The notes below the pieces were generated by a model, which worked only from the letters and a program-made list of their open reading frames with translations, made no database searches and was not told where the DNA came from. This document shows, one piece after another, positions 474 to 23,792 of a stretch of 24,081 bases of DNA. Position numbers and translations under genes: made by a program. The DNA is from a virus: positions 1 through 24,081 of the IMG/VR virus record IMGVR_UViG_3300030060_005853; one strand, written 5' to 3'. Every line of letters starts with the position of its first letter. Within the stretch, counting starts at the first letter, position 1.

Positions 474-3095
474 TTATCTCCTGTTGTACTTCGCAAAGAC
501 TTGTGCGTTTGTAGCACCAGCCGCATTGTTGAATACTTGCATGTAAAGGAAATTACCTGCGGTCATTGATCCACTTGTAAGACCAGCCTCAATCGTACTA
601 CTTGTCCCAGTCGCACCGGCGATTCCGAGTGTGCAACCTGTGATTGCTCCAATTGTTGGGTAACCAAGAACACTTCCAGCAACAACTACACCCGCACTGA
701 ATCCTGCGGTATTGTTCGTAACAACTTCGATACCCGTAAGGGTTGCATCGTATGGAAGTCGATGGAGGGAGTCGGTCTTTGCACCAGTCGAAATTGCACC
801 CTTCGATGAAACTGTAAAGGTCGCAACCCCCGAAGCGACACCGACAACTGCTCCCGTCGATCCGTTGAAGGATGATACAGTTTGAGTCGTTAGAGCAACA
901 TTTGTAATTGCACCAGTTGAACCATTTACAGATTCTACACCAGTTACCGCTCCGGTTGATCCGTTGAATGATGCTACTGTGTTGGTGGTAAAGGCAACAT
1001 CTGCGATGTGACCTGTTGCACCATTTATACTGTAAACTCTATTGGTAGCGGGATGGAATGACAGATAAACATCTTCACCAGTAGCAAATTCACCACTACC
1101 GCCTCGAGCGATTCCACTCACGGCGCGGTAATCACCAGAGGATACATGAGTAGAGTCGATAGCGGTTTCAAGTATTAGTCTTGCACCAGATGAAACTCCA
1201 ACCATATGAAAATAATCACCACTCACACTATCAGAGATGTAAGTGCTTACATCGCTACCATCTCTATCTTCATTATCGAAGTATAGTACTACAACTTCAC
1301 CCGAATCAACGCTGTCAGAAAAGTCACCATCTGTATCAAGAAAGACTATACCGCCACTATATCCTGCCCCCAATGATGCGGCTGATGCATATTCATACTT
1401 GACACCCGGAAGACCCTGAACTGGAAGTGAGGAGGCTGTTGTTTGAATTGTGCCGTCTGGGAACACAAAAGAAGAACCAGTGATCGCACCAGAGGCACTT
1501 AGTCCTGCAACCTGAAGAGTGTCACCACTAAATGCAGATCCAAACGAAACCGCTCTGTACGCACCAGTAATACCAGTGGCACCGAGAGCAGTATCAAAAG
1601 CCATAATTTGACCCTGTGTGGGTTGCATGTTGATGTCAACATCTTGAAGTTCGCTGAGGAACATGTCATCAACAGAGATACGAATGACATCTCTTTGTTC
1701 ACCACTGGTATCGATTCTAATATTTGAACCGGACATGAACGTGATGACTTGAGCATCTTGAACAATTCCAGCAGGTCCAACAACAGTCGTGGTGCTTCCG
1801 TTGATTTGTGTTCTTTGTGCGTTGTTTAGTTCTGCACTTGCACTTGCTACCTTTGAGGTAGGTGTAATGTCTGCCTTTGATACTTTCGCCGACGCACTGA
1901 TTCTGTTTACTGCTGATACGTTTTTAGAGAACAAACTTGATCGGCTAGAGGAAAGCCTAGCAGGCGACCTTTCAACGGTTATGCTTGATCCTTTACTGCT
2001 AATAGATGTGAACGAGTAAGTACTTGTTGGAGAGGCAGCCGCAGTACCACCACCCAAGAACTCATCTTTCTTTTTGATTGAGGGATCTAGGTTTACAATC
2101 TGGAAACGAATCGGTGTAGATAGCAACTGGGGGATGTTGGTTGGATTAGTCGAATACTGTGTTTCACTCTGATCTTTATCTCTCCGGTACACTCGATAAG
2201 GTCCGGGTTCTGCTGTTGCATGATTTGCCTGATCATTAGGCATGTAAAACACTACATTTGGAAACTCAGCGAACGTATGTTCGTGAACACCACCTTGTGT
2301 GTTTGCATTTGCCTGATCTGCAAGTGCGCCTGATGTCCATAGAGGATAATAGTAACCATACTCCCCTTTATATGGAGCATCATTTGTTGCAGTTCCCTGA
2401 ACTGTATAAGGACCAGCATCCTGAAGGGGTGGTTCATAATCTCCGTGGAACATTGTAATACCCATGACGAGACCGTTCGGCATGAAGTATCGTTTACCTT
2501 GAAGAATGTGGGTATGATAACCCTTAGTAACTTCTCCCTCTCTTATCTCGGTTGGGCTAGGGCTTGCCTTTACCGCATCTTCTTTCTTCGTGTAAAGAGG
2601 GAAGTACCCATCTATATGAATAGGTGCCGCAATTTGTAGTCTTTTCTTGTTGACTCTAAGAACTCGGACTTGATGAATATCGTTTTCCGTGTTTAGAGTT
2701 GCCCGACGACTATTTTGCTTTGCTCTCCTTACAGGTCTCGTTGTCTCTCGCTGTATTATTACTGGTTCATTTGAGAGAGGCACCCCGTTTTCATCTACAC
2801 CATGTGCCTCTCTCAAATCTTCTATATCATAACTTAGATAGTTCTCATAGAATATTTCAGGCTCGGAGGTTGCCCCAGCCGAAGAAGCAGGTTGTCTTTC
2901 TACTCCTAATCGCTGAGATAAAGGTTGTCCTCTCGGAACTCGACCAGTCGGAGAATCGACTCTTCGTTCATACTCTTGTGCGGGTGGAACGACAGGAGGT
3001 GTAGAAGCAGGAGGCATAGGTGTTGAACCGCCCATCCCTCCGCTTGGTGTCGATGGGGGTGGTGGTTGACTTCCTTGGTTACCGTGATACGACAT
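474..3095 (-). CDS. Large fibre-like virion structural protein (873 aa)
   Basis: The first 60 residues are Pro/Gly/Ser-rich, starting MSYHGNQGSQPPPP, and look like a flexible leader. A middle part of about 500 residues has mixed beta-type sequence. Near the C-terminus four tandem units follow the pattern S-(I/F/V)-NG-(S/A)-TG-(A/H), such as SFNGSTGAVTGV. A final domain begins around KGAISTGAKTD and is rich in Gly, Ala and Thr. NGSTGAV-type repeats are familiar from structural proteins of marine T4-like phages. I chose the ATG at 3095 because it overlaps the upstream TAA by one base (TAATG); the longer frame to 3131 lies inside the upstream gene. It probably forms a fibre or baseplate-attached spike. 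The exact role is unknown. Confidence 0.75.
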   Translation of the reverse strand: MSYHGNQGSQPPPPSTPSGGMGGSTPMPPASTPPVVPPAQEYERRVDSPTGRVPRGQPLSQRLGVERQPASSAGATSEPEIFYENYLSYDIEDLREAHGVDENGVPLSNEPVIIQRETTRPVRRAKQNSRRATLNTENDIHQVRVLRVNKKRLQIAAPIHIDGYFPLYTKKEDAVKASPSPTEIREGEVTKGYHTHILQGKRYFMPNGLVMGITMFHGDYEPPLQDAGPYTVQGTATNDAPYKGEYGYYYPLWTSGALADQANANTQGGVHEHTFAEFPNVVFYMPNDQANHATAEPGPYRVYRRDKDQSETQYSTNPTNIPQLLSTPIRFQIVNLDPSIKKKDEFLGGGTAAASPTSTYSFTSISSKGSSITVERSPARLSSSRSSLFSKNVSAVNRISASAKVSKADITPTSKVASASAELNNAQRTQINGSTTTVVGPAGIVQDAQVITFMSGSNIRIDTSGEQRDVIRISVDDMFLSELQDVDINMQPTQGQIMAFDTALGATGITGAYRAVSFGSAFSGDTLQVAGLSASGAITGSSFVFPDGTIQTTASSLPVQGLPGVKYEYASAASLGAGYSGGIVFLDTDGDFSDSVDSGEVVVLYFDNEDRDGSDVSTYISDSVSGDYFHMVGVSSGARLILETAIDSTHVSSGDYRAVSGIARGGSGEFATGEDVYLSFHPATNRVYSINGATGHIADVAFTTNTVASFNGSTGAVTGVESVNGSTGAITNVALTTQTVSSFNGSTGAVVGVASGVATFTVSSKGAISTGAKTDSLHRLPYDATLTGIEVVTNNTAGFSAGVVVAGSVLGYPTIGAITGCTLGIAGATGTSSTIEAGLTSGSMTAGNFLYMQVFNNAAGATNAQVFAKYNRR

Positions 3096-6000
3096 TATGG
3101 TTGATCCCCGGGCGTACACATTCCACAGCAATCATCGGGTGTGCAATCATCACCGCAATCATTGAAACCACAATTACCTATACTTCCACTTGGACACACT
3201 CGACCACAATTATACCTGTCCTGATCGAACCGTGGTTTGGGCCGTGTTTCCGTTGGTGTCAAATCGAAGGGGGAAGGTGGTCCTTCGGGCGCTGGGTCGA
3301 AGCCCGGACCATCCGGGCGACCCGCCGGACCATAAGTCTGACATGTTGCGGCGCAAGCCTCGGTATACTGATACTCTTGCATACACTGAACCGAGTCTAT
3401 ATGCATCAACGATGGTTCGCAATCCTCATCTTCACCCTCCAAGTCGTCAATGCAATAACATCGAAATCCTTGACAGGGGTCCATATCTTCGTTTTTACAG
3501 TACACCATACAATCCTTATTATCACAAATTGGATTATCGTAATCACCGGCACAAGGATACAAACAGAATGACTGACCGCATTGCGATGTGTCCGTCGGAT
3601 CAAAACACTTTCTCTTCCCGTCACATGCCAAGGCTTCAGTTTGTCCTTGAGGACATGAAAGGCTAGGACAACTATATGTCGGCGCACCACACTCGGCTGG
3701 ATTATATGACTCCCCCGTTACTTCACATACTTTCTCACATGAGTCTGGGAATGTACTTGATCCGGTTTGAGATCCACAAGGACATTTGCATCCCGGCGAA
3801 CCACCAGACATGTTATATGTTGCCCCTTGGTCACATTCCTTCGCACATCCATTATAACTGTATGCTGTTCCTTCGGAGCAGTCTTGGCAACAACAACCAT
3901 TGTCACACCATTTCACATCTTGTCCATACTGACAGCAACAAAAATTCATCCAGTTGGGGTGGGAATCACCATGATTGATATAGTCCTCAAGATACTTTCT
4001 ACAGTCTGTTATCAATTTACATTGACCACCACAACAGAATTCATCTGCATAGCACTTATATGTTACATTTCCGTTATCATCAGTGATAGGAACTTCGTAA
4101 CCCAGACACGTTTGTCCACCGGCACATTGTCGCTCGTAATAACCAATCTCTACATACAATTCACAACAAGTTACACCATCATCACATTGCTCTTGTTTAC
4201 AATCTCCACAATCCCCGACATCCTTGCAACCTCCTTCCCAGATACCCGGAATTGGGTCGCAACAATACTCATTGATACTATTATCGCAACATGTTGGATA
4301 TCCACCAGTATCACAAGGTTCGAGATCTGTGTCGCAACAAATACAAACTTCCATACCGCCTTGATCGACACCGCAAACCTCTTTTGTTCCGGGTGGACAT
4401 CCACATTCACAATTACCTTCATAGACATAATCTGGATAGTTGTTGTAGTCATAATCTAGGCAAGTGAAGCAAGGTGTTGGTGATCCAATAGAATCATCAT
4501 TCAAACAGGCATAAGTACCATTTTCACAAGGACAACAGTCATCTTCGTCTGGACAACAGAAGGAATCTGGATCATTGGGACCAGACCCACAGCATTGTTC
4601 ATCGTCAGTACAACAATCAAATTCACCACAGCATTTCTCATCTTCACCACAGCAACGATCAAATGCGTTGCAACACTCCCCATTACAACAACCAATACCG
4701 GGACAGCAATTTTGATCATCGGTACAGCAATCATTTTCGCTTTGTGGATCATTATTAGGACAGCACTCATTTCTACAGCACCTATCCGCGACTCCTACAC
4801 CGAAATAATCTTCTTCACATCCACCGATGATACCCCCTCGAACTTGCGAGCATTCTCTACACTCACCTTCAAACTCTTCACAACATAGGTCGTCGATGGG
4901 CTTCGGTACATCATTACAGCATTGTTGAAATGATCGATCTATACATGACCCACCACAACAATCACCCGCAGGACAGCAAGGTCCGCCACCCCCACAACAG
5001 ACTTCACCGTCGGCGCAACAGTATCCGTTACCACAACACCTTGCAACATCGCAACAATTCCCACCGCAACAGATATCTCCCGGTGCATCACAACATGTGC
5101 CATCTCCGCACTCGGGACATCCACCGGCATAAGGACAGGGTTGGACACACTGACCGTTACAACAAGCGAATAGACCGTTTACAGTTGGACAGCAGTTTCC
5201 GCTACCGGGGGGACACTCTGTGCTATCTGGAGGACATGGCGCACATGGTGGACAACCACCGCCACCAGTTCCATCAGGGAATGGAGGACACGGTTCTACA
5301 CATTGACCATTACAACATATTTGTCCGGGTGGACAATCTTCGTCGATACCACAACCACCATCTGGGAAACAGCGAACACCTAGACCTGTACTTGCGTCAT
5401 AACATTCGCTTCCATCGCCATAATAATCACCACCAAAGAATGCACACTGTTGTGCAGTTACTTGGGTACAGTATTCACCCACACAGCAAGCACCTGTTGG
5501 ATCGTCACCGGGACAGTTGCAGTTTTGTCCGGGTTCACCGGGGGGACCAGCACAACCCGGCGCACCTTGTGGACCGGGAGGACCAGTCGCTCCAGCAACA
5601 ACCGTTATACCTTCGAGACCACATTCAAGAGTTCCGCCCGGATCTACAAATTCAGCGTAGTACTTTTTAGCCTCTTCTTCGATCTCCTCTGCGTTTAGGT
5701 TACCATCTCGTAATTTCTTGAGCGGACCTTTCAATGCATTCGTGGCGAACAGATTATCAATCAACTGAGATACTAGAGGATCGTTTAGTGCTTCGGTAGT
5801 TAGTTGAGTTCCGCCTGAGTATTTGCGAACAACACGAAGTGCCTCGCAGTAGTTTAGTTCGTCATCTGCGATAAGACCACTTACACACTCAATCAAACCG
5901 GGGATGAGTCGGTTGATTGCACAATTACAAGCGGCTGGATTTGCTTTCAACCGAATAGCAAGACCACCAATACCAGATTGTGTATTGAACTCAGAGCATA

Positions 6001-6511
6001 GGGCATCGCCGGGAACACACATGGTATCTTTGCAGATTTTCTCCATGCAGAAGTCACCATTGATAAGACTATTGAACACATGAGTGTATCTTTCTTTGTC
6101 TTCTCCGGTGAGTGTTTTCATTGCACGGGTGTATTGACCGGCGAGTGTTAGACGAGAAAGAAATTCATCAACTCGATTTACCTCAGAGCCAGAGATTCGG
6201 TTTGTGTGAATTTCTAGAAGTTCAACTTCAAACATCAACTCTTCGAGTTTGGATTTGACATCCAATGCACATTGATAGGGAAAATCTCCACACTGAAGAC
6301 AACCATTTGCACTTTCAATACCTGACTCGATTACCTCGATAATAAGATCAAATTCAGCAATTTGTATTTCAATACATCTCTTCGCCCGTTGAATTCTATT
6401 CAGAAGTGGATTCTTCAGACCTTTACCTGTAACCAATAGATAAGCAGCCTCTCTTTGGAAGTTGCTAATTCCATCTTCAGGAATGGGAGTATTTGTATCA
6501 AAAGGATTCAC
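3095..6511 (-). CDS. Giant cysteine-rich virion protein with short collagen-like segment (1138 aa)
   Basis: Residues 1-300 form an ordinary, largely helical domain with scattered Cys. Residues 307-330 are eight uninterrupted G-X-Y triplets (GPPGPQGAPG...), a short collagen-like segment. From about residue 331 to the end the chain is dominated by cysteine: by hand I count about 158 Cys in total, about 14%, many as CC pairs inside short Gly/Asp-rich units such as CCNGQCV, CCGGNCC and DCPPGQICCNGQC. A Pro-rich stretch lies near residues 1070-1105, followed by a last Cys cluster. The pattern recalls disulfide-rich extracellular repeats (granulin, Stig1, keratin-associated style), but I cannot assign a family. 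The start is a GTG at 6511 overlapping the previous TAG by one base. It lies between gp5-adjacent and fibre genes, so I infer a virion component at the tail tip or fibre. Disulfide cross-linking or metal binding are the obvious options. Confidence 0.8.
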   Translation of the reverse strand: MNPFDTNTPIPEDGISNFQREAAYLLVTGKGLKNPLLNRIQRAKRCIEIQIAEFDLIIEVIESGIESANGCLQCGDFPYQCALDVKSKLEELMFEVELLEIHTNRISGSEVNRVDEFLSRLTLAGQYTRAMKTLTGEDKERYTHVFNSLINGDFCMEKICKDTMCVPGDALCSEFNTQSGIGGLAIRLKANPAACNCAINRLIPGLIECVSGLIADDELNYCEALRVVRKYSGGTQLTTEALNDPLVSQLIDNLFATNALKGPLKKLRDGNLNAEEIEEEAKKYYAEFVDPGGTLECGLEGITVVAGATGPPGPQGAPGCAGPPGEPGQNCNCPGDDPTGACCVGEYCTQVTAQQCAFFGGDYYGDGSECYDASTGLGVRCFPDGGCGIDEDCPPGQICCNGQCVEPCPPFPDGTGGGGCPPCAPCPPDSTECPPGSGNCCPTVNGLFACCNGQCVQPCPYAGGCPECGDGTCCDAPGDICCGGNCCDVARCCGNGYCCADGEVCCGGGGPCCPAGDCCGGSCIDRSFQQCCNDVPKPIDDLCCEEFEGECRECSQVRGGIIGGCEEDYFGVGVADRCCRNECCPNNDPQSENDCCTDDQNCCPGIGCCNGECCNAFDRCCGEDEKCCGEFDCCTDDEQCCGSGPNDPDSFCCPDEDDCCPCENGTYACLNDDSIGSPTPCFTCLDYDYNNYPDYVYEGNCECGCPPGTKEVCGVDQGGMEVCICCDTDLEPCDTGGYPTCCDNSINEYCCDPIPGIWEGGCKDVGDCGDCKQEQCDDGVTCCELYVEIGYYERQCAGGQTCLGYEVPITDDNGNVTYKCYADEFCCGGQCKLITDCRKYLEDYINHGDSHPNWMNFCCCQYGQDVKWCDNGCCCQDCSEGTAYSYNGCAKECDQGATYNMSGGSPGCKCPCGSQTGSSTFPDSCEKVCEVTGESYNPAECGAPTYSCPSLSCPQGQTEALACDGKRKCFDPTDTSQCGQSFCLYPCAGDYDNPICDNKDCMVYCKNEDMDPCQGFRCYCIDDLEGEDEDCEPSLMHIDSVQCMQEYQYTEACAATCQTYGPAGRPDGPGFDPAPEGPPSPFDLTPTETRPKPRFDQDRYNCGRVCPSGSIGNCGFNDCGDDCTPDDCCGMCTPGDQP

Positions 6512-7089
6512 TAAAAGAGATCTCCAACTTCAGGGATGTTATCCGTCACATTACTAAACTTCGGTAATTCCGCAGGGGGAATCAAACTATTTATATTTGG
6601 TAGAGTGGGTGTATTCTTCAATAGACTTTGTTGTGCGTCTTGTGCCAGCGAGTCCGCCTGCTTACATAGTTCTGCAAGTGGGTTCTCGATGTTGAGTTGT
6701 TTGAGTACGTCATCTGCCGCGGCTGTAATAAGTTGCTCGGGGTCAATCTCTGTTGGAAGACCCAACGATTGTAGAATGAATTCGGGATCTGCGAGGGAAG
6801 TTATTTCTGGTAGACCGTTGAACATGTCTTCAAATGAGGGAGGAGATATGTCAAACCCCCCACCAGATGCAAGTCCCTTCAATGAGGAACCCAAAGCCTC
6901 AGCCGCATCGGGTAGACTTGCAATACCATCAACACCCTTTAGGATATTCTTATCGCAAAGAGGATTTCTTGTAACAGAAGAAACAGCACTGGGTACAGAC
7001 AACTTACCCGTGATATTCTTGACCTTGAAATCAGGGAGTTGTGGTTGTATTCTGTCTGGAAATGGGTCGTAACCTGATTTGAAAACCAT
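6511..7089 (-). CDS. Conserved baseplate-operon protein of unknown function (192 aa)
   Basis: The protein is moderately hydrophobic with several Pro breaks and short amphipathic helices (AEALGSSLKGLASGGGF; LAELCKQADSLAQDAQ). No catalytic motif or signal peptide is visible. The ATG at 7089 is preceded by AAGGAGC, which overlaps the TAA stop of gp5, so translation is probably coupled to gp5. Its own stop overlaps the GTG of the cysteine-rich protein. The position between the hub needle gp5 and the Cys-rich protein suggests a small structural or assembly protein linking the two. I do not recognise the family. Confidence 0.65.
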   Translation of the reverse strand: MVFKSGYDPFPDRIQPQLPDFKVKNITGKLSVPSAVSSVTRNPLCDKNILKGVDGIASLPDAAEALGSSLKGLASGGGFDISPPSFEDMFNGLPEITSLADPEFILQSLGLPTEIDPEQLITAAADDVLKQLNIENPLAELCKQADSLAQDAQQSLLKNTPTLPNINSLIPPAELPKFSNVTDNIPEVGDLF

Positions 7090-7098
7090 GACTGCTCC

Positions 7099-8445
7099 TT
7101 AGAATGGGTTGATAATTTTCTTCGCCGCTTTTGCTGCCGCACGAACTGGAGTGAGAAGCGAATCGATGGCATCGCTAACAATAGAAGGTGGTAGTCCTCC
7201 TCCACCACCACCGCCTCCACCGCCTGCATAACCGGGGTGGTTGAGATGGATATCGGGTCCAGCATTCATGATAGTGTTCTTGCCTGATTGTGTTCTGAGT
7301 TGTCCATCTACGCGAAGGTTATAATCACCACTCACATAATGTTCAAAGTTTCCGTTGACATGTACATTCATGTTACCGTCTTCGATTTGGAGATTTGCAT
7401 CTCCTTTTCCAACCTTTGCGTTTAGGTTACCTTCGGTGACTTCTACATTGAGATTGCCTGATTTTGCAACATGAATGTCAAGGTGATTACCTTCTTCGTC
7501 TGTGTTTACCTTTATCTTATAGCCTTTGTCGATGTTCTTACAGGCATAACCATCAATGTGAATTTGATCGTTTCTCATGATGATCGTGTAATTGCTTCTT
7601 ACGATCTTTTCGACCTTATCACCATTTGGATGAAACTCCTCAAACGTACCGGATCTGTGGTATCGATGAATCCGTTCTTTCTGGGGTGTATCATCTACCT
7701 CGAAGATGTGACCTGACTCACTTTCGTACACATGGTTGTGTGGATATTGTGCATCATATGGTGTGAGCGGTTCTGTCCATGCACCCTCTCTGTTTGCCTC
7801 GGTGCTTGTATTGCTGCCGATTCCTGCTTTCTTACCCGTACCTGTAAAGTCGGCGGTTCTTACTTTCTTATCTTGGTTATCCTTCTTGAGTTGAACTACA
7901 GTCTGATCGATACTTTCATTTCGAGCAAGCCTGTTTGTGTCTTGCTCTTCTACATAAGCGGTTTGTGGATAACGTCTGCCTTGTGGTTCATTGATAAGGA
8001 TTGCTCCATTACCATCTGTTGGATAATCCGCAGTTTGAAAACCGTTGCCCTTCAACGGTCCCGATCTCGGATCTGTCTTGAGTGCTGGTTGATCTCTTGG
8101 ATCCGTAAAACCATTTGCGGGGTCGGTCTCCTCTTGTGGGATACCACCGACCGAACCCATGATCATAGGCTCTTGTTGGTTAGGACCATCACGAAAGAAA
8201 CCAACTACCCAACCACCCGGTACGAGACCAGTTGGTGAGTGACCCTTACCACTGCGTGCCGCACTTGTAATTGGTTGAATGGGCATCGCCCACGGAAGAT
8301 CCTCTGTGGGAATATCAACCTTCTTTGCACTATGCGAACCGAGAACACGAACTTTACATCTGCCTAGAAACAGGGGATCGTTGACATCTTCAACAACTCC
8401 CATGAACCAGCAGAATTCTTCACTTCCTACAAATTGCCTCTTCAC
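7099..8445 (-). CDS. 5: Baseplate hub needle, gp5-like without lysozyme domain
   Basis: The N-terminal region (about residues 10-110) has the gp5/VgrG OB-fold signature MGVVEDVNDPLFLGRCKVRV, followed by WVVGFFRDG and PMIMGSVGG. The centre carries the SGHIFEVDDTP...RYHRSGTFEEFHPNGD segment shared by T4 gp5 and VgrG-type spikes. The C-terminal part holds short VxGNxxxx-type beta-prism repeats (GNLNVEVTEGNLNAKVGKGD). T4 gp5 has a lysozyme domain between these parts; none is present here, as in many marine T4-like phages. After the prism come ten glycines (residues 408-417) and a 31-residue hydrophobic/basic tail ending KKIINPF. The start is GTG, directly after the TAA of the kinase-HAD gene. The product should form the trimeric membrane-puncturing needle below the gp27-like hub. 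Confidence 0.9.
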   Translation of the reverse strand: MKRQFVGSEEFCWFMGVVEDVNDPLFLGRCKVRVLGSHSAKKVDIPTEDLPWAMPIQPITSAARSGKGHSPTGLVPGGWVVGFFRDGPNQQEPMIMGSVGGIPQEETDPANGFTDPRDQPALKTDPRSGPLKGNGFQTADYPTDGNGAILINEPQGRRYPQTAYVEEQDTNRLARNESIDQTVVQLKKDNQDKKVRTADFTGTGKKAGIGSNTSTEANREGAWTEPLTPYDAQYPHNHVYESESGHIFEVDDTPQKERIHRYHRSGTFEEFHPNGDKVEKIVRSNYTIIMRNDQIHIDGYACKNIDKGYKIKVNTDEEGNHLDIHVAKSGNLNVEVTEGNLNAKVGKGDANLQIEDGNMNVHVNGNFEHYVSGDYNLRVDGQLRTQSGKNTIMNAGPDIHLNHPGYAGGGGGGGGGGLPPSIVSDAIDSLLTPVRAAAKAAKKIINPF

Positions 8446-9828
8446 TTAGAACCCCAATGATTTTAGTTTACTGATAGTTTTGCTTGCAGAGGTATGATGA
8501 ATACCGATACCGCCTGCCTGTTCCCACTCTTTGATGTTCTTTGGATGATCATCAATAAGAATTCCACGCTCGCCGTTCTTTACGGCATAGTCTCTCTTAT
8601 CTTTTCTACGAACCATAAACATCTTGTTTCTAGGAACGCTTGTGTTTTTCGATAGCCAAGTTCGTTTGTCTTGGGGACTCTTCGGAACCCAAGATGCATA
8701 CGCCGATAGGATCGATGGATTGTATTTGCTTATGAATTTGTACAAGGTCTTTCCATCAGACATCCATTCTAGATCTCTGTAAATGTTGGGTGCTTTGTCT
8801 GCAACTTCAGCCTTCTTGTCCCTACCCGCTTTGGTAAAGAATTTGGAATCTCTAAAGTCATGACCCAGAACATCAGAGGTAGCCTTGATGAAATCACATA
8901 GAACACCATCCATGTCACAGTAGATCTCTGGTAGTTTTTTTTCTTCTTGTAGTTTAGTAACAAGGTCTTGACCCGAACCAAAGATTTCTTTAGTCTTCTT
9001 GGTCTTGGGAATATTACCCTTGATCCAAGAAAGAACCTCATGGTTGAATGAAGTAATATCTTGCATCCTTTTGCCAGGATCCTTGATCTTGAGATACTTG
9101 AAGTCCTTGACTACCATGCGACCATCACGACCGTCGAGTGGTTTACCTGTTCTCGGGTCTGTATAGAATACGGTGTGCTTCGCACCACCTAGAATTACAT
9201 AGATACCACCGTTTACTCCATTCGGAACCTTACCTGATAGGAGTTCGTACATGGTTCGCGCCGCACCTTCGTGTGTCTTTAGGAGAATGTCATCAGGAAC
9301 AATACGAGGTCTAGACTTGTTCTGTTGGACTGCGATATGATAGTTGGTAAGAACCCAAACAACATGAATGCTCTTTGGATCATATCCAAGTGCAAGTAGT
9401 TCGGGAAGAACACCCGTAATGTCATCGATGTCCTTGAGTGTGCAGTCAAACATTACGTTTGGAAGTCTGCCTTCTTTTGCCTGACCAAGAAGAAGATCGA
9501 GGGTTCTGTCCTTGATTCCCTTCTCTTTCACAAAAGTGTGTAGTTTGAATACATCCTTCGGTCTGCGAAGATCAAGACCTTTTAGTTCGGGATATTTGTT
9601 GTGCTTATCTCGCATAGTAAGAAAAGCCTGCTTGAGTTCGTCAACATCACGAACTTTGAATTTGGTGGAATCTAGAAAGTGATCTCTTGCAAACCCTTTA
9701 CCCGAGCCTGCACCACCGGCAAGAAATACAATTTGACCGTACTTCTTACCTCCACCGACGACAATCATCTTCTCGTCAAGACGCTCTAGTTTCTCTGTGA
9801 TTTCATTGAACTCTGAAAAGTGTAGCAT
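8446..9828 (-). CDS. P-loop kinase / HAD phosphatase fusion protein (460 aa)
   Basis: Residues 38-46 form a Walker A loop, GGAGSGKGF, in a zeta-toxin/AAA-kinase-like N-terminal domain of about 290 residues. Residues 303-311 carry HAD motif I, YCDMDGVLC (nucleophile D305, acid D307). A motif II-like SILSAYAS lies near 372-379, a basic segment RRKDKRDYA near 407-415, and motif IV LIDDHPKNIKEW (D426, D427) near the end. Kinase-then-phosphatase is the same order as T4 polynucleotide kinase-phosphatase, but the kinase half is much larger and not clearly homologous. Substrates could be nucleic-acid ends or nucleotides; this is not shown. It is placed between hub genes, which is odd for an enzyme. 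Translation likely depends on the unusual Shine-Dalgarno/hairpin leader at 9829-9858. Confidence 0.82.
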   Translation of the reverse strand: MLHFSEFNEITEKLERLDEKMIVVGGGKKYGQIVFLAGGAGSGKGFARDHFLDSTKFKVRDVDELKQAFLTMRDKHNKYPELKGLDLRRPKDVFKLHTFVKEKGIKDRTLDLLLGQAKEGRLPNVMFDCTLKDIDDITGVLPELLALGYDPKSIHVVWVLTNYHIAVQQNKSRPRIVPDDILLKTHEGAARTMYELLSGKVPNGVNGGIYVILGGAKHTVFYTDPRTGKPLDGRDGRMVVKDFKYLKIKDPGKRMQDITSFNHEVLSWIKGNIPKTKKTKEIFGSGQDLVTKLQEEKKLPEIYCDMDGVLCDFIKATSDVLGHDFRDSKFFTKAGRDKKAEVADKAPNIYRDLEWMSDGKTLYKFISKYNPSILSAYASWVPKSPQDKRTWLSKNTSVPRNKMFMVRRKDKRDYAVKNGERGILIDDHPKNIKEWEQAGGIGIHHTSASKTISKLKSLGF

Positions 9829-9858
9829 TTACTTAGGCGAATTTTCGCCTCCTCCTTA
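9829..9858 (-). promoter_or_regulatory. Split ribosome binding site: strong SD, hairpin, then AUG
   Basis: On the minus strand a perfect TAAGGAGG (9858-9851, including the upstream stop codon) is followed immediately by AGGCGAAAATTCGCCT (9850-9835). The latter is a perfect inverted repeat with 7-base arms. Six bases later comes the ATG at 9828. The linear SD-to-ATG distance is 22 bases, too long for normal initiation, but folding the hairpin would shorten it to about six. Comparable leaders are described for T4 genes 38 and 25. Seen: the sequence and spacing. Inferred: that the hairpin forms and enables translation. Confidence 0.7.
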
Positions 9859-11319
9859 TGACAGTCCCATCCAGTCGGTTGACGCGGATTGTTGTGCGAT
9901 TTGTACGGCTTGATCTTTACGATAGTCCATAGACCTGTCTTGGACCTTTTCCCCGTTTGAATCTCGAACACACTTCATATGCATAATATGTCCATCATAA
10001 CTCAAATTTTGATTTATCTCCGTAACCAAATATCTACCAGATTCAAATTTATCTAGGTCATCTTTACCTTTAGATGTTGCTTGGATCGCCGCAAGATCGA
10101 GATGGATAACATTTCCTACCTGCATTCGTGAGTCACCAGCAACCTGCATCATTACCTTCTTCATCCCGATTCCCTTCATATATGACCTTCTCTTTAGAAT
10201 CCACTTTTCGGATTCATCATTGTTATCAATACCATCATACATTTGAGCATGTCGTGGTCTGTATAAGAAGTTCGACATGGGTGTCCCACTGAAGTTGTCG
10301 TTTTCTTTTGATAGGGGGTATTGTTTTTCCACATGTTCCGTGTTATCATACTCGTCTTTCAGTTTGAACGAGAATGCAGGACCACCATCTTCCCAAGCGA
10401 GACCATCTTGTTCTCTTCCCATGAACTTCTGACTAATGATATCATGAACCAAAACCGTTGAAGCATATCTGCCTCCGGCAATCTCAGATAGTCTATCTCC
10501 CTCTTCCACAAACTTTATCTCGTATATGTTTCGGAAATCAAGTGCGGTAACTCTAGTATCGGATGGTTTGTCCCTCTGTTTCGTTGGACGGTAAATGAAA
10601 TCCATAACTGGAGTTTCTTGATCCTTCAACAATTTCTCGATGGTTGTGAGATAGAACTTGGGTTTACCTTCGTCTGCATCAATCGATTCATAAAACACAT
10701 AGTTACATGCCTCAGGATTGTCAGAAGGGATTGCCCTTTGAAGTAGCCAATTTATTGATTGCAGGGGAGACCAGTAAGGTATAATGTACTTTTTTTCTTG
10801 GTCTTCTGTTGCAATTTCAATCTTCAGATCTTTATCGATCTTTAGTTTTTCATCGTATATTTTTTGGATCGTACCGCTGACTGATCCTGTATAAGACTTA
10901 CTAAACTTGGTTTGGAGGTCCATGTATGTTTCTCTCGAAACAAGTTTCATGGTATACAGTTGTTTTCTGCCTGTATTGTTCACTGTACGTTGAGGCATTC
11001 CGTATGTAACAAATTCAAGTTTCGTAGATTCTGCACCCGGAGTTTCATATTCGATTGTTACGGTTTCTTCTTGTCCAACAATAGGAAGAAACTTCTTTAT
11101 GTTACCACTATCAATGAGTGTTACATCAGCGGACATGCAGTTTGAAAAGAGATCTTGGTAAATGTTCATACTAACAAAGATACTCTTGATGTCAAAGTAC
11201 CCACCGTTGGGTGAGGTAATCTTTAGAGTCCTTAGACGAAAATCATCCGTCCCTTGATACTCGGAATCCTTCGCTTCTATCGGATTCTGTTCGTCAAAGT
11301 GTTTACCATATTCAGCCAT
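9856..11319 (-). CDS. Baseplate hub protein, gp27-like
   Basis: A 487-residue, non-secreted protein. Its first half contains the conserved-looking stretch FVSMNIYQDLFSNCMSADVT, then VGQEETVTIEYETPG, which matches the beta-barrel hub style of gp27 and related tail hub proteins. The second half (ISQKFMGREQ; GNVIHLDLAAIQ; SGRYLVTEINQNLSYDGHIM) resembles the later barrel of such hubs, where a GRYLV-type segment is common. T4 gp27 is 391 residues, so this version is longer. It sits directly upstream of the kinase-HAD gene and gp5; gp27 and gp5 form one complex in T4. The ATG at 11319 follows the gp53 stop by one base. The gp27 label rests on position and fold-like patterns, not on an alignment. 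Confidence 0.65.
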   Translation of the reverse strand: MAEYGKHFDEQNPIEAKDSEYQGTDDFRLRTLKITSPNGGYFDIKSIFVSMNIYQDLFSNCMSADVTLIDSGNIKKFLPIVGQEETVTIEYETPGAESTKLEFVTYGMPQRTVNNTGRKQLYTMKLVSRETYMDLQTKFSKSYTGSVSGTIQKIYDEKLKIDKDLKIEIATEDQEKKYIIPYWSPLQSINWLLQRAIPSDNPEACNYVFYESIDADEGKPKFYLTTIEKLLKDQETPVMDFIYRPTKQRDKPSDTRVTALDFRNIYEIKFVEEGDRLSEIAGGRYASTVLVHDIISQKFMGREQDGLAWEDGGPAFSFKLKDEYDNTEHVEKQYPLSKENDNFSGTPMSNFLYRPRHAQMYDGIDNNDESEKWILKRRSYMKGIGMKKVMMQVAGDSRMQVGNVIHLDLAAIQATSKGKDDLDKFESGRYLVTEINQNLSYDGHIMHMKCVRDSNGEKVQDRSMDYRKDQAVQIAQQSASTDWMGLS

Positions 11320-11320
11320 A

Positions 11321-12172
11321 TTAGATCATTTCCTTCATTATTCTTTTGAACTCATCGATCACTTGCGGGATGTACCGTTGCTTTAGAATACTGATCTTTC
11401 GTCTTTCATCATTCTCTTCAAAAGCAACATCAGAAATCGTTTTGATTGTGTGTGTTGTGGGGGTTACACTGTTCAAATAACCTTGCAAAACTGTCTGACT
11501 CATAGTTACGGCAGAACCGAATCCCGATCCTGTTTGACCAAGAGGAACTTGAACACCGTCTGAATCGGGGGGTGAAGCATATCCACTTATCTCCGCTGTT
11601 TCCCCGCTATTCTCAAAGTGATGTAATCCTAGTCGTTGAAACTCTACTATTCTTTTGACTCTTGTAGTAAACTCATTACCATCTTTATCTAGAGATGTAA
11701 AAATATCACCATTACTAACAGTACCAGTTTCTTGTTCGAGATTCAATTTTTGAGTAACCGGATCCCAATCTCGAACAAGACCCTTGTCTAGATTGAAAAA
11801 GACATCTGCACCCTTGACGAAATTACTTGTCACTGGTGTGTTGGTTGTATTTGAATCAAGATAGTATGCTTTACCGGGATACACTTTGTCGAGGTAAGAT
11901 TCTAGTTGTGCTTCACTAAGAGGGAAATCGTATTTCGGATCAATCACTTTATTGAATAGCATAATGATCCAGTGCATCTCTGGATCCCCATAAACCTTCT
12001 CTGCAACTACTTCAGGCGTCTCGCCTTCTTCAACATAGTACTCCTCGAACAAGGCTCCTTCTTCGATTATCTTCTCCCGAAAAGCAACTCGCCGCAATAC
12101 ATCAGTGGCGAGTCGAAGATTACCATCCTTGGAAATATCGTATCGGACTAATGGAAACTTCTCAAAGTACAT
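11321..12172 (-). CDS. 53: Baseplate wedge protein gp53
   Basis: The N-terminus MYFEKFPLVRYDI and the following block YYVEEGETPEVVAEKVYGDPEMHWIIMLFNKVIDP are characteristic of gp53. The second block resembles a LysM-like segment (ETPEVVAEKVYGD) that leads into the wedge-binding region. In T4, gp53 joins neighbouring wedges in the baseplate. The middle (residues about 105-215) is less conserved and may be an insertion. I use the ATG at 12172, which overlaps the gp48 TGA by one base (TGATG); a TTG one codon earlier is an alternative. It is coupled to gp48 upstream and followed after one base by the gp27-like gene. Confidence 0.88.
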   Translation of the reverse strand: MYFEKFPLVRYDISKDGNLRLATDVLRRVAFREKIIEEGALFEEYYVEEGETPEVVAEKVYGDPEMHWIIMLFNKVIDPKYDFPLSEAQLESYLDKVYPGKAYYLDSNTTNTPVTSNFVKGADVFFNLDKGLVRDWDPVTQKLNLEQETGTVSNGDIFTSLDKDGNEFTTRVKRIVEFQRLGLHHFENSGETAEISGYASPPDSDGVQVPLGQTGSGFGSAVTMSQTVLQGYLNSVTPTTHTIKTISDVAFEENDERRKISILKQRYIPQVIDEFKRIMKEMI

Positions 12173-13152
12173 CAATACCCATCCTTATAGTGATCTCTAT
12201 CGAGCAGTTCTAGTTCACCGAACTCTAGTGTGATTTTCTGATGAGTAGGTGCATCGGTTCCCTTGTGGAACGAAGCAACACCAGCATTTGTGTATGAAGT
12301 TTGGATGGACTTCAACGCACATCGCCCGAACTTCGCAACGAATTGGTTTTCGCCCTGTGTACCAGAGAACGTAAGAAGAAACTCTGAAGGATATGCCATT
12401 AGTGTTGTTGATCCTTCGATTCTTTTCGGTGCCGCATGAACTTTGAAGAGTCCAATGATGTCTCTCAACGCTTCACTCTCTCCTTGATTTCTTGGTGCAA
12501 AGTCATATTCGAGTGTGATGTTCCTTGAGTTGGGTTCTGAGAACAATGCTTCCTTTCTAGGATTGAAAGCCGTTCTGTTCTGTGCTTGGAATAATTTGTC
12601 TGCGTTCTCTGTTACGAAGTTACCAATCGCACCACCTACTTTGTTTACCGCCTGTGCCGCTAGAGCAGAGTCGCCTTCTGTGACCGCTCCCAAAGCCTCT
12701 CCTGCAAGTGTTCTCTTGAAGGAAGTCATTTCCCAATTCCAACCGTCACTGATCGTAAGGTTTTGTGGCATTGGGAGAATAACACTATCTTCATTTCTTT
12801 TGTATGCTTTACTCATTCGAGTGTTTGATACTGTTTCGCTGGCATAGTTTGCGATAGAACTACCTGCACCACCAAGTCCACCTTCTCTCGCGGACTGTCT
12901 TCTTCTTGTTATGGCGTCTGCATTTGAGTCCTCCGCCCTAGTAGATCCTGCTCCAGTGCGAGGACGACCTTGCGCCCTTTCGTTTCGGACTGAATCAATA
13001 GAAGATTGTCCGGGTGACGATACTGAACGAGATGAACCACCCAGACTAGCCGCCTCTTCAGAGAAGATGTCGAATAGGATGTAGTGACCTTGATCATCGT
13101 TCATTAGGTCTTGTGGAAATGCATAAATACCGGCGTCAGAGTTTGCGGTCAT
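12172..13152 (-). CDS. 48: Baseplate tail-tube cap protein, gp48-like
   Basis: The protein opens with YAFPQDLMNDDQGHYILFDI, which resembles the start of cyanophage gp48. After a low-complexity Ser/Gly/Arg linker (about residues 35-105) come LPMPQNLTISDGWNWEM and then a C-terminal domain (NITLEYDFAPRNQGESEALRD; YPSEFLLTFSG; KITLEFGELELLDRDHY) of the gp48/gp54/tube-initiator kind. In T4, gp48 sits on top of the hub and templates tube polymerisation. It is the first gene of the minus-strand operon. The ATG at 13152 has a perfect AGGAGG eight bases upstream (13161-13166). gp54 remains an alternative name because the two are related in fold. Confidence 0.78.
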   Translation of the reverse strand: MTANSDAGIYAFPQDLMNDDQGHYILFDIFSEEAASLGGSSRSVSSPGQSSIDSVRNERAQGRPRTGAGSTRAEDSNADAITRRRQSAREGGLGGAGSSIANYASETVSNTRMSKAYKRNEDSVILPMPQNLTISDGWNWEMTSFKRTLAGEALGAVTEGDSALAAQAVNKVGGAIGNFVTENADKLFQAQNRTAFNPRKEALFSEPNSRNITLEYDFAPRNQGESEALRDIIGLFKVHAAPKRIEGSTTLMAYPSEFLLTFSGTQGENQFVAKFGRCALKSIQTSYTNAGVASFHKGTDAPTHQKITLEFGELELLDRDHYKDGY

Positions 13153-21224: not shown

Positions 21225-22430
21225 ATGGCAAGAACATCTCTCCATAAGTCACTCAAGCAGTTGCTTCATGGGAACGAAGGAAGTTCCGGTGCCGCATCGG
21301 ATATATCTAATTCAGATGTTCTGATTGCAACAGCAGATACTTGTATCAATAGAGAAAATCCAAATAGAGACATATCGTCTCAAGAGAACATCGTTGTAGG
21401 TTATGATTTTGATGGGACATATGACAATCTAATCAAGCGGGGATTTACTCAGGGATATTGGACATTACCTCCATTCCTTACCCCTGCAAACCTTGTAGAT
21501 GATGCCGGTGCTAGAAATGCGTATCTCTCAAGAGCATTGTTTGAATTTGACATCAAAGACAGTGATGCGTTTGATGGAGGAATCAACCATGCATTCCTAT
21601 CTCTTACTTTCTCGTCCCACAAACCACTTGCCCGTGTAGAGGGGATTACTCTAGATTTCCATTCATTCTATTGTGCTTCAAGTTTCACAGGCGGTGCCAA
21701 TACAGGCGGTGCAACATGTGGAAATATCACACTCTGGGATGGAAGTGCAACATGGTATGAATGGAAGTATACGGGTGCATGTGAATTCGATACGGGAGTG
21801 GGTGATGGTTTGAGTGGTGATGATGACCCCGACACAAATGGAGCAGGCGCACAAGATTTTGCTGGTGTTATCGATGATAACATCGGTGTTGCACCACCCG
21901 GAAACGCCATAGCAGGATTCACAGGAAACATCTGGTCACATCAAGGACTCGGTGCGTCAGGTGGTCTAGGACAAGTAGTTCTTCAAGCGGGAACTGACGG
22001 GAGTGTCATTGCGTCTGGAAAATTCCTAGACTTTTCTCAGGGTGATTTGGATAGTGGTCACTACGATACCGGGCTGAAAACAACGGGTTTAGTTGCAGAT
22101 AACTTCGGAATTTATCCAAGCGTATATCTAACCAACCGAGAGATAACATCAAACAAAAAATTGATACTTGATGTCACGGAAGCAGTGAAATTTGCGGTGC
22201 GACAAAATAAAGGTGTAATGAGGATCATGGTCAATGTGAGACATGATTTCATATACAATCGTGGTGAACAACCATCAGGTAGATCAAAAGACAGGGCGTT
22301 CGTTGGTTTTCACTCAAGAGAAACAAGAAGTGAACAAGGGCAACTACCACTTGACGCAACTTCCTCTAAAGTTACAGATCAATCAGTTCCTAAGTTTGCC
22401 CCGCACTTGATAATCAACTATGGGTCTTGA
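21225..22430 (+). CDS. DNRLRE/carbohydrate-binding-like virion protein (401 aa)
   Basis: The ATG lies one base after the preceding stop, giving MARTSLHKSLKQLL. The sequence ADTCINRENPNRDISSQENIVVG, later YLSRALFEFDI, and the ending PKFAPHLIINYGS form the pattern of DNRLRE-type beta-sandwich domains (ADTxIxxxxPxxNyGxxxxlxVG...RaLlrFDl...aPhLxi.Y). These are found in extracellular carbohydrate-active proteins. A large insertion (CGNITLWDGSATWYEWKY; Gly-rich loop) sits between. I infer a late virion protein that binds host glycans, possibly with the 339-residue protein upstream. The stop lies 13 bases into the convergent minus gene, so the two genes overlap tail to tail. The DNRLRE call is from memory of the family pattern. 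Confidence 0.65.
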   Translation: MARTSLHKSLKQLLHGNEGSSGAASDISNSDVLIATADTCINRENPNRDISSQENIVVGYDFDGTYDNLIKRGFTQGYWTLPPFLTPANLVDDAGARNAYLSRALFEFDIKDSDAFDGGINHAFLSLTFSSHKPLARVEGITLDFHSFYCASSFTGGANTGGATCGNITLWDGSATWYEWKYTGACEFDTGVGDGLSGDDDPDTNGAGAQDFAGVIDDNIGVAPPGNAIAGFTGNIWSHQGLGASGGLGQVVLQAGTDGSVIASGKFLDFSQGDLDSGHYDTGLKTTGLVADNFGIYPSVYLTNREITSNKKLILDVTEAVKFAVRQNKGVMRIMVNVRHDFIYNRGEQPSGRSKDRAFVGFHSRETRSEQGQLPLDATSSKVTDQSVPKFAPHLIINYGS

Positions 22431-23122
22431 TTTTTTTGCTTGTTACGAGCCTCGATCAATTCCTTGCGTCTCTTTTCACAAGAGGCGCATTTTGGTTTTG
22501 CGTCCTCGACGATTGGTGAATCAGTGGGTTTAGGTTCTACAACTTCTTCCCAAATTTCTTTCCGTTTGCGTTCCAATGCTGCCCGAACATGATCGGGGAT
22601 AGTTTCACCCTGCGTATGGTAGTAGTTTGTCACATCCGTCACGATCTGAGTAAACTTCTTCTTCGCCTCACATGGTTTACAACCTTCCTCCTTCTTTTCC
22701 TCTTTCTTCTCTTCTTGAAGATTAGGATGGACAGGCTTGACTTTGTTTGGGTCGATGTTCTTTATACTGAGAGTTAGTTCGATGGTCTTCTTTCTTTCAT
22801 CATCACCCTCAGACCATTCCATATAATCACTGAATCCCGGCATCTTACGAGGACAACTAAGGTAAGGGTGATCCAACTTACCGTATTCGCGTTCGTCTGT
22901 GTTCAACCAAGTTGCACGGCGATCTCCACAACCGCACTCACCACAATAGAACTTACCGGCTTGTTCCTGACTCGGCATAAGACCGGGACATACAGGAACT
23001 TCTTTCCCGTCACCGAAACAGGAAAGGAGTCGAATGTCTTTTGTGGTTACGTCTGTTTTTTTGTTACCTAGACCTTTAGACCACTTCGCCTTTAGGTAAC
23101 TCCCGATCATGCTCAAATTCAT
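22418..23122 (-). CDS. Cysteine-cluster (zinc-site) protein of unknown function (234 aa)
   Basis: I take the ATG at 23122 because AAGGAAG lies nine bases upstream. It overlaps the exonuclease gene by 47 bases; an ATG at 23110 is possible but has no SD. Cys35, Cys45, C60-X2-C63-X-C65 and C90 could form one or two zinc sites in the first 100 residues (FYCGECGCGDRRATWL; YLSCPRKMPG). A Lys/Glu-rich linker contains C148-X2-C151, and a C-terminal charged helix contains C212-X2-C215 (CASCEKRRKELIEARN). No enzyme motif is seen. Coupling to an MGME1-like exonuclease suggests a DNA-related accessory role. Unrecognised otherwise. Confidence 0.7.
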   Translation of the reverse strand: MNLSMIGSYLKAKWSKGLGNKKTDVTTKDIRLLSCFGDGKEVPVCPGLMPSQEQAGKFYCGECGCGDRRATWLNTDEREYGKLDHPYLSCPRKMPGFSDYMEWSEGDDERKKTIELTLSIKNIDPNKVKPVHPNLQEEKKEEKKEEGCKPCEAKKKFTQIVTDVTNYYHTQGETIPDHVRAALERKRKEIWEEVVEPKPTDSPIVEDAKPKCASCEKRRKELIEARNKQKNQDP

Positions 23123-23792
23123 ACTTGTAGACTTCCTTGAAATGGAGGATCTTTTCACGCAGAGAGACCACATAGTCGATTGGATTTCTCTCGAATACCT
23201 GCGTGGTTCCATCCTCGCTTGCAATAATGATTACGATATTATCTATATTGATTTTTGTTCGCTCTGTGAACATGATAGCATATGCTGTCGCCTGTTCAAA
23301 GTAATTATCAATATCACTTTCTCGTTTTTCGCGTGTACTTCCTTTGAAGTCAATCACCGAGAGTTTACCATTGTACTCACCAATGCAGTCAACGCGACCG
23401 GCGAGACCAACGGTCTCTGACCAAAGAGGTACTTCTTGCGCCACGATGTTGTTGATGTTATCGAGATGGGGTCGCATGTTCACGAACAACTCTAGATCCG
23501 TTGGGAGGATCTTCTGCTTGGACTCTTTATCGTCCGCATCGAACTCGTTGTTCAGATAGTATTCGATTAGTGTGTGTAGGCGATTCCCGCGAGCGGTGAC
23601 ACGCTTCGCCTCTTTGGGGTTGTCTCTTCGCCACTTAGCAAAGAACCGGCTCTTCTCGAAACCCACGACTGTGGTAACACTCGGAAGTAACTTTCCCGTT
23701 GGGGTTTCGTATAGTCTAAGCGATCCGCGTTGGGTGGACGATAGGCTGTCTAACTGTGTACCGAGATCCTTGTGGGTAAATTCCATGTTCAT
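23076..23792 (-). CDS. MGME1-like PD-(D/E)XK exonuclease
   Basis: 238 residues. H73 in GNRLHTLIEYYLNNEF is the RecB/Cas4-type motif I. E120 (AQEVPLW), then D135 in GLAGRVDCIGEY and D148-F-K150 in LSVIDFKGSTREK form the PD-(D/E)XK core. FEQATAYAIMF supplies the Q-x(3)-Y motif of the RecB family. Length and motif order match mitochondrial genome maintenance exonuclease 1-like proteins of marine phages. It probably processes DNA ends or flaps during replication and recombination. No Cys4 iron-sulfur cluster is present. The ATG at 23792 has AAAGGTG about seven bases upstream. Confidence 0.85.
   Translation of the reverse strand: MNMEFTHKDLGTQLDSLSSTQRGSLRLYETPTGKLLPSVTTVVGFEKSRFFAKWRRDNPKEAKRVTARGNRLHTLIEYYLNNEFDADDKESKQKILPTDLELFVNMRPHLDNINNIVAQEVPLWSETVGLAGRVDCIGEYNGKLSVIDFKGSTREKRESDIDNYFEQATAYAIMFTERTKINIDNIVIIIASEDGTTQVFERNPIDYVVSLREKILHFKEVYKYEFEHDRELPKGEVV

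Follow-up and report, generated by a model that had tools for sequence, protein, structure and literature searches.

A conserved cysteine-array protein of phage baseplate clusters is a probable tail-fibre anchor and shaft

A 24-kb virus record (IMGVR_UViG_3300030060_005853; 24,081 nt, called the window below) encodes a protein of extreme cysteine content among its tail and baseplate genes. We conclude that this is an intact gene under selection and that its product is probably the baseplate-attached anchor and shaft of the tail fibre of an uncultivated T4-like myovirus. For the full model, which includes disulfides formed after lysis, we estimate a probability of roughly two in three (0.68).

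Results

An intact cysteine-rich gene in a baseplate cluster

The gene (the Cys gene) starts with a GTG at 6511 and runs down the minus strand to 3095 (Table 1). The initial annotation had given its range as 3095–5530, which holds the array portion but falls short of the full ORF, 3095–6511. Its tally of 158 cysteines in 1138 residues proved exact on recount. They make up 13.9% of the protein, with 14 in residues 1–330 and 144 from residue 331 onward, against a mean of 0.87% in the other ORFs of the window. The array contains 34 non-overlapping CC doublets, which hold about half of its cysteines; the wording "mostly as CC pairs" was slightly strong. The eight G-X-Y triplets reported ahead of the array are present at residues 307–330 (GATGPPGPQGAPGCAGPPGEPGQN). 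Pfam Collagen matches this neck below its cut-off (E 0.0096) and was the sole match in a Pfam scan to E 0.1, while phmmer against the PDB returned a single chance-level toxin match (E 0.25).

Granulin, Stig1 and keratin-associated proteins are likewise made of short CC-rich units with abundant Gly, Pro and Asp. The likeness to them that had been suggested holds for style alone: the context is different, and the same Pfam scan and PDB search gave no match to any of these families.

Table 1. Features of the window (all on the minus strand) and the basis of each assignment.
Feature	Position	Strand	Basis
Cys gene, proposed Cys-rich fibre-base protein	3095..6511	-	ORF sequence and homologues; 1138 aa, 158 Cys
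N-terminal, mostly helical domain, residues 1-306 (proposed anchor)	5594..6511	-	AF2, Foldseek, Pfam; kept in all relatives
Collagen-like neck, eight G-X-Y triplets, residues 307-330	5522..5593	-	sequence; conserved in relatives
GACC module (TGACCVGEYC..C.FFGGDYYGDGSEC...)	5171..5497	-	most conserved part of array
Cys array, residues 331-1138, 144 Cys, CC ladders	3098..5521	-	composition, conservation, spacing
Downstream fibre protein, Cys-poor, repeats SFNGSTGAVTGV	474..3095	-	similarity to the C-terminal part of L020 (43%, 595 aa, E 1e-113)
Gene X, 192 aa, between hub and Cys gene	6511..7089	-	position
gp5-like baseplate hub	7099..8445	-	phrog_430 E 7e-91, Gp5_OB
Tail protein phrog_350	9856..11319	-	PHROG match
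Baseplate wedge gp53	11321..12175	-	PHROG and Pfam
Baseplate tail tube cap (gp48/54-like)	12172..13152	-	PHROG match

The placement in a baseplate operon was borne out, since the tail tube cap, gp53, the phrog_350 protein and the gp5 hub belong to the same cluster. Related genes also lie within tail/baseplate clusters. In contig L008, gp25, gp6 and gp7-like genes follow the Cys gene; in G002, a 134.8-kb contig with two tandem copies, the pair is followed by a Gly_rich_2/phrog_863 (fibre/Gly-rich) gene and then by PAAR and gp6. Several IMG/VR contigs keep the order gp5 hub, small gene X, Cys protein, fibre and baseplate wedge. Gene X separates the hub from the Cys gene in the window and in contigs L002, L003, L007 and L008 and is missing from L020, and G002 has a gene of similar size at that place. 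On the other side of the Cys gene of the window, the ATG of the downstream fibre gene at 3095 overlaps the stop codon (TAATG, 3093–3097).

Two further ORFs of the window deserve mention. Positions 8446–9828, within the baseplate cluster, encode a polynucleotide-kinase-like (Zeta_toxin Pfam match) and deoxyribonucleotidase fusion that is likewise fused in G002. Positions 22418–23224 encode a 268-aa product with about 4% cysteine and no family match.

Cysteines are conserved while the rest of the array diverges

Full-length homologues have 123–269 cysteines each: 158 in L002, 167 in both L007 and L008, 269 in L020, and 158 and 123 in the two G002 copies. Further full or partial homologues occur in L003, L019 and a single contig recorded as L004, L006, L016 and L018. 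The initial annotation had named decay of the frame in all related genomes as evidence that would count against it; all the full-length relatives found have an intact frame. The N-domain is present in all homologues, and the collagen stretch, GACC module and array in every member long enough to contain them. In L020 (2988–10277), a 2429-codon open frame joins everything from the N-domain through the fibre tip into a single chain. A search of the phage database returned no relative of the full protein, the N-domain, the module, the downstream fibre or a gp6-borne form of the module (see below), nor of the N-domains of L022 or G002; none of the isolated phages searched has a relative. L022 (5625–6560) encodes a distant N-domain relative with at most two cysteines and no array, downstream of an apparent PAAR-like gene, and may resemble an ancestral form.

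When the window is compared with L002, the full-length relative closest to it, 141 of 142 aligned array cysteines are kept, against 337 of 644 other residues (52%). The corresponding figures for L007 and L008 are 148/148 and 381/508 (75%). Masking cysteines during alignment still left 118/137 (86%) retained between the window and L002 and 139/146 (95%) between L007 and L008. Across more distant clades the masked value drops to 40–45%, so either the clades differ in the exact register of the array or it is unalignable without its cysteines. The ratio dN/dS is 0.04–0.08 for the N-domain and 0.07–0.10 for the array where computable, a limit that excludes the window–L002 array, in which synonymous sites are saturated. 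The Cys gene is an intact gene under selection. As explanations of its cysteine content, chance, a reading-frame artefact and decay are ruled out by the low background of the window, the intact Cys-rich homologues and selection.

The N-terminal domain and its predicted fold

Using ten sequences, AF2 gave a model of residues 1–570 of moderate confidence (mean pLDDT 61.9); with five sequences the result was poor (pLDDT 41). The N-domain is predicted to be helical, with pLDDT 80–95 over much of 37–110 and 150–220, and the array to form beta-hairpin ladders at residues 480–540 (pLDDT about 70–78). The model is silent on redox state. With this moderate-confidence model as query, Foldseek ranked DUF7217 of Ackermannviridae first in BFVD (E 3.4e-5, prob 1.00, TMt 0.55). 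Pfam DUF7217 was also the best sequence match of two relatives (E about 4e-4), at best 20.7 bits against a cut-off of 29. The PDB fold search gave nothing distinctive, only helical-bundle look-alikes, and barely covered the Cys array. Because phrog_2114 and DUF7217 matches below cut-off occur in several control genomes, weak matches alone were not used; weaker DUF7217 matches also fall on a prohead core protein. The fold and sub-cut-off sequence matches to DUF7217 (PF23854, phrog_2114), a helical Ackermannviridae protein, are taken as a lead, namely that the N-domain may be distantly like it. In Salmonella phage 38 (L270, 9289–10716), a 475-aa protein with a GTP-binding domain PHROG has DUF7217/phrog_2114 in its second half.

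The array is joined to a probable tail-fibre protein in some relatives

In two contigs the array and the downstream fibre protein form a single chain, giving three fused proteins (L020 and both G002 paralogues). The downstream protein of the window, for which no PHROG or Pfam match was found, also matches parts of both G002 proteins, and in the first G002 copy the tip is matched by PHROG tail-fibre families 9017/7760/22179 (E 1e-7 to 1e-9). The array therefore shares a polypeptide with a fibre tip in these relatives and an operon, through overlapping genes, in the window. The fusions and the G002 tip strengthen the proposal of a tail-tip or fibre component made in the initial annotation. Its picture of a fixed N-terminal anchor, a collagen-like neck and a long disulfide-type array also gains support, for a structural protein of the baseplate/tail operon.

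A module shared with exported planctomycete proteins

The first Cys module of the array, GACC...C...C...GGxYxGDGSxC, recurs in cellular proteins, and its phage version matched no model in Pfam or NCBIfam. We found the pattern CxxxGGxYxGDG[ST]xC in at least 120 stretches of genomes. Among the matches listed, about 108 (some 90%, counted from record titles) are from Planctomycetota, most of them Phycisphaerae. A CC...C part lies upstream in 179 of 194 translated matches, genome and viral loci pooled. The Planctomycetota proteins have the same module, GACC...C......C...GGxYxGDG[ST]xC, and the phage module keeps their spacing, which is identical in its second half. Unlike the phage array, the cellular loci examined have no dense CC ladder. 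They also differ in their N-termini: by a simple hydrophobicity rule, rather than a dedicated predictor, 76 of 97 cellular module ORFs have a signal-peptide-like start, compared with 115 of 595 other ORFs and 0 of 24 in viral contigs.

The module pattern occurs in 34 viral contigs, and in other phages the GACC module is also found on collagen-bearing fibre-like proteins. L201 (3212–5617, minus strand) and L224 (3799–6213, minus strand) encode gp6 baseplate wedge proteins with C-terminal GACC modules (phrog_219, E 1e-155), and the module has a similar context in L220 and L229. Short viral ORFs in L204 (3716–4426) and L205 (6868–7782) are packed with GACC modules and CC ladders and have no N-domain. 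A literature search on Cys-rich phage tail proteins and planctomycete surface proteins returned nothing relevant.

Within the phylum of a Phycisphaerales MAG, 3 of 199 sampled genomes contain the exact module pattern, so the pattern belongs to a subset, and a planctomycete host is something we infer. The N-domain occurs in 0 of 294 genomes sampled from that phylum, an empty answer that shows little, and was not found in the GTDB contig collection by way of the module alignment. When the host was sought through the hub, matches came to 3/392, of which one only was strong, on a 7.2-kb contig.

Discussion

CxC and CxxC are the usual spacings of metal ligands. In all seven arrays these two fall below shuffled expectation (z -1.5 to -4.4), being depleted in most members, and CC and C-x5-C are enriched in most. 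The shortage of CxxC and CxC argues against metal binding and for disulfides. A metal-binding protein carried by the virion, whether zinc, iron-sulfur or metallothionein-like, would fit the extreme Cys density, the acidic array and synthesis in a presumably reducing cytosol. Against it stand these spacings, the rarity of histidine in most members and the fact that the cellular version of the module is found in exported proteins; we consider metal carriage, as the initial annotation had offered, very unlikely. To our knowledge, phage fibres assembled in the cytosol are not expected to rely on disulfides. The spacing and near-invariance of the cysteines, together with a module common to secreted planctomycete proteins, point to a fibre held by disulfides. 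Oxidation after lysis is suggested by the missing signal peptide. No thioredoxin-family gene was found in five phage records, so nothing phage-encoded in that search would handle 150 thiols, and none of the six tRNAs of G002 is a tRNA-Cys that could meet the demand for cysteine. The odd totals of 167 and 269 mean that not all cysteines can pair within one chain.

Two other readings concern what the array does on the tail. It could coat the tail tip as armour or decoration, with the downstream protein an independent fibre. This would suit the window and contigs L002, L007 and L008, where array and fibre are encoded by separate genes, and also the other phages whose gp6 wedge proteins have GACC modules. 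In L020 and the two G002 copies, however, a single polypeptide includes both array and fibre, and we regard the idea as improbable. Compatible with a fibre, and somewhat less probable still, is an array that engages module-bearing, Cys-rich host surface proteins, by module-module contact or thiol-disulfide exchange. Such a redox-active gripping element would form or exchange disulfides with Cys-rich planctomycete surface proteins after lysis and make adsorption covalent. That secreted planctomycete proteins and exposed tail components of several phages have one module in common speaks for this reading; the presumed nature of the host, the absence of the N-domain from the sampled phylum and the rarity there of the exact pattern speak against it.

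We therefore favor the tail-fibre model. The helical N-domain would dock on the baseplate, the collagen-like stretch would form a short trimeric neck, and the array would be a shaft in which small beta-hairpin modules are tied by disulfides. Part of the array was probably assembled from modules that secreted host-type proteins also have. The downstream protein would be the distal fibre, its binding tip presumably serving adsorption. Made in the cytosol, the array would most likely close its disulfides once lysis has released it into oxic water; the resulting rod would resist proteases and need no hydrophobic core. A conserved family with 120–270 near-invariant cysteines per chain and a module of exported proteins would be a new fibre-shaft design. 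It may also offer a handle on phages of planctomycetes, and the gene a possible metagenome marker for them.

A near counterpart is the multi-part long tail fibre of T4-like phages, as in the gp34–gp37 layout of T4 (PMC5537660). As in those fibres, a baseplate-linked proximal protein would be followed by a distal one that has the tip. The present family departs from T4 in its proximal part, made of a collagen neck and an array with 123–269 cysteines, in the fusion of proximal and distal parts in some relatives, and in lacking any PHROG or Pfam match to T4 fibre proteins. Collagen-like tail fibres (PHROG 1806, 5073 and 366) share the short G-X-Y stretch, over which they give weak profile matches in G002; the present family differs from them in having eight triplets only, followed by the Cys array.
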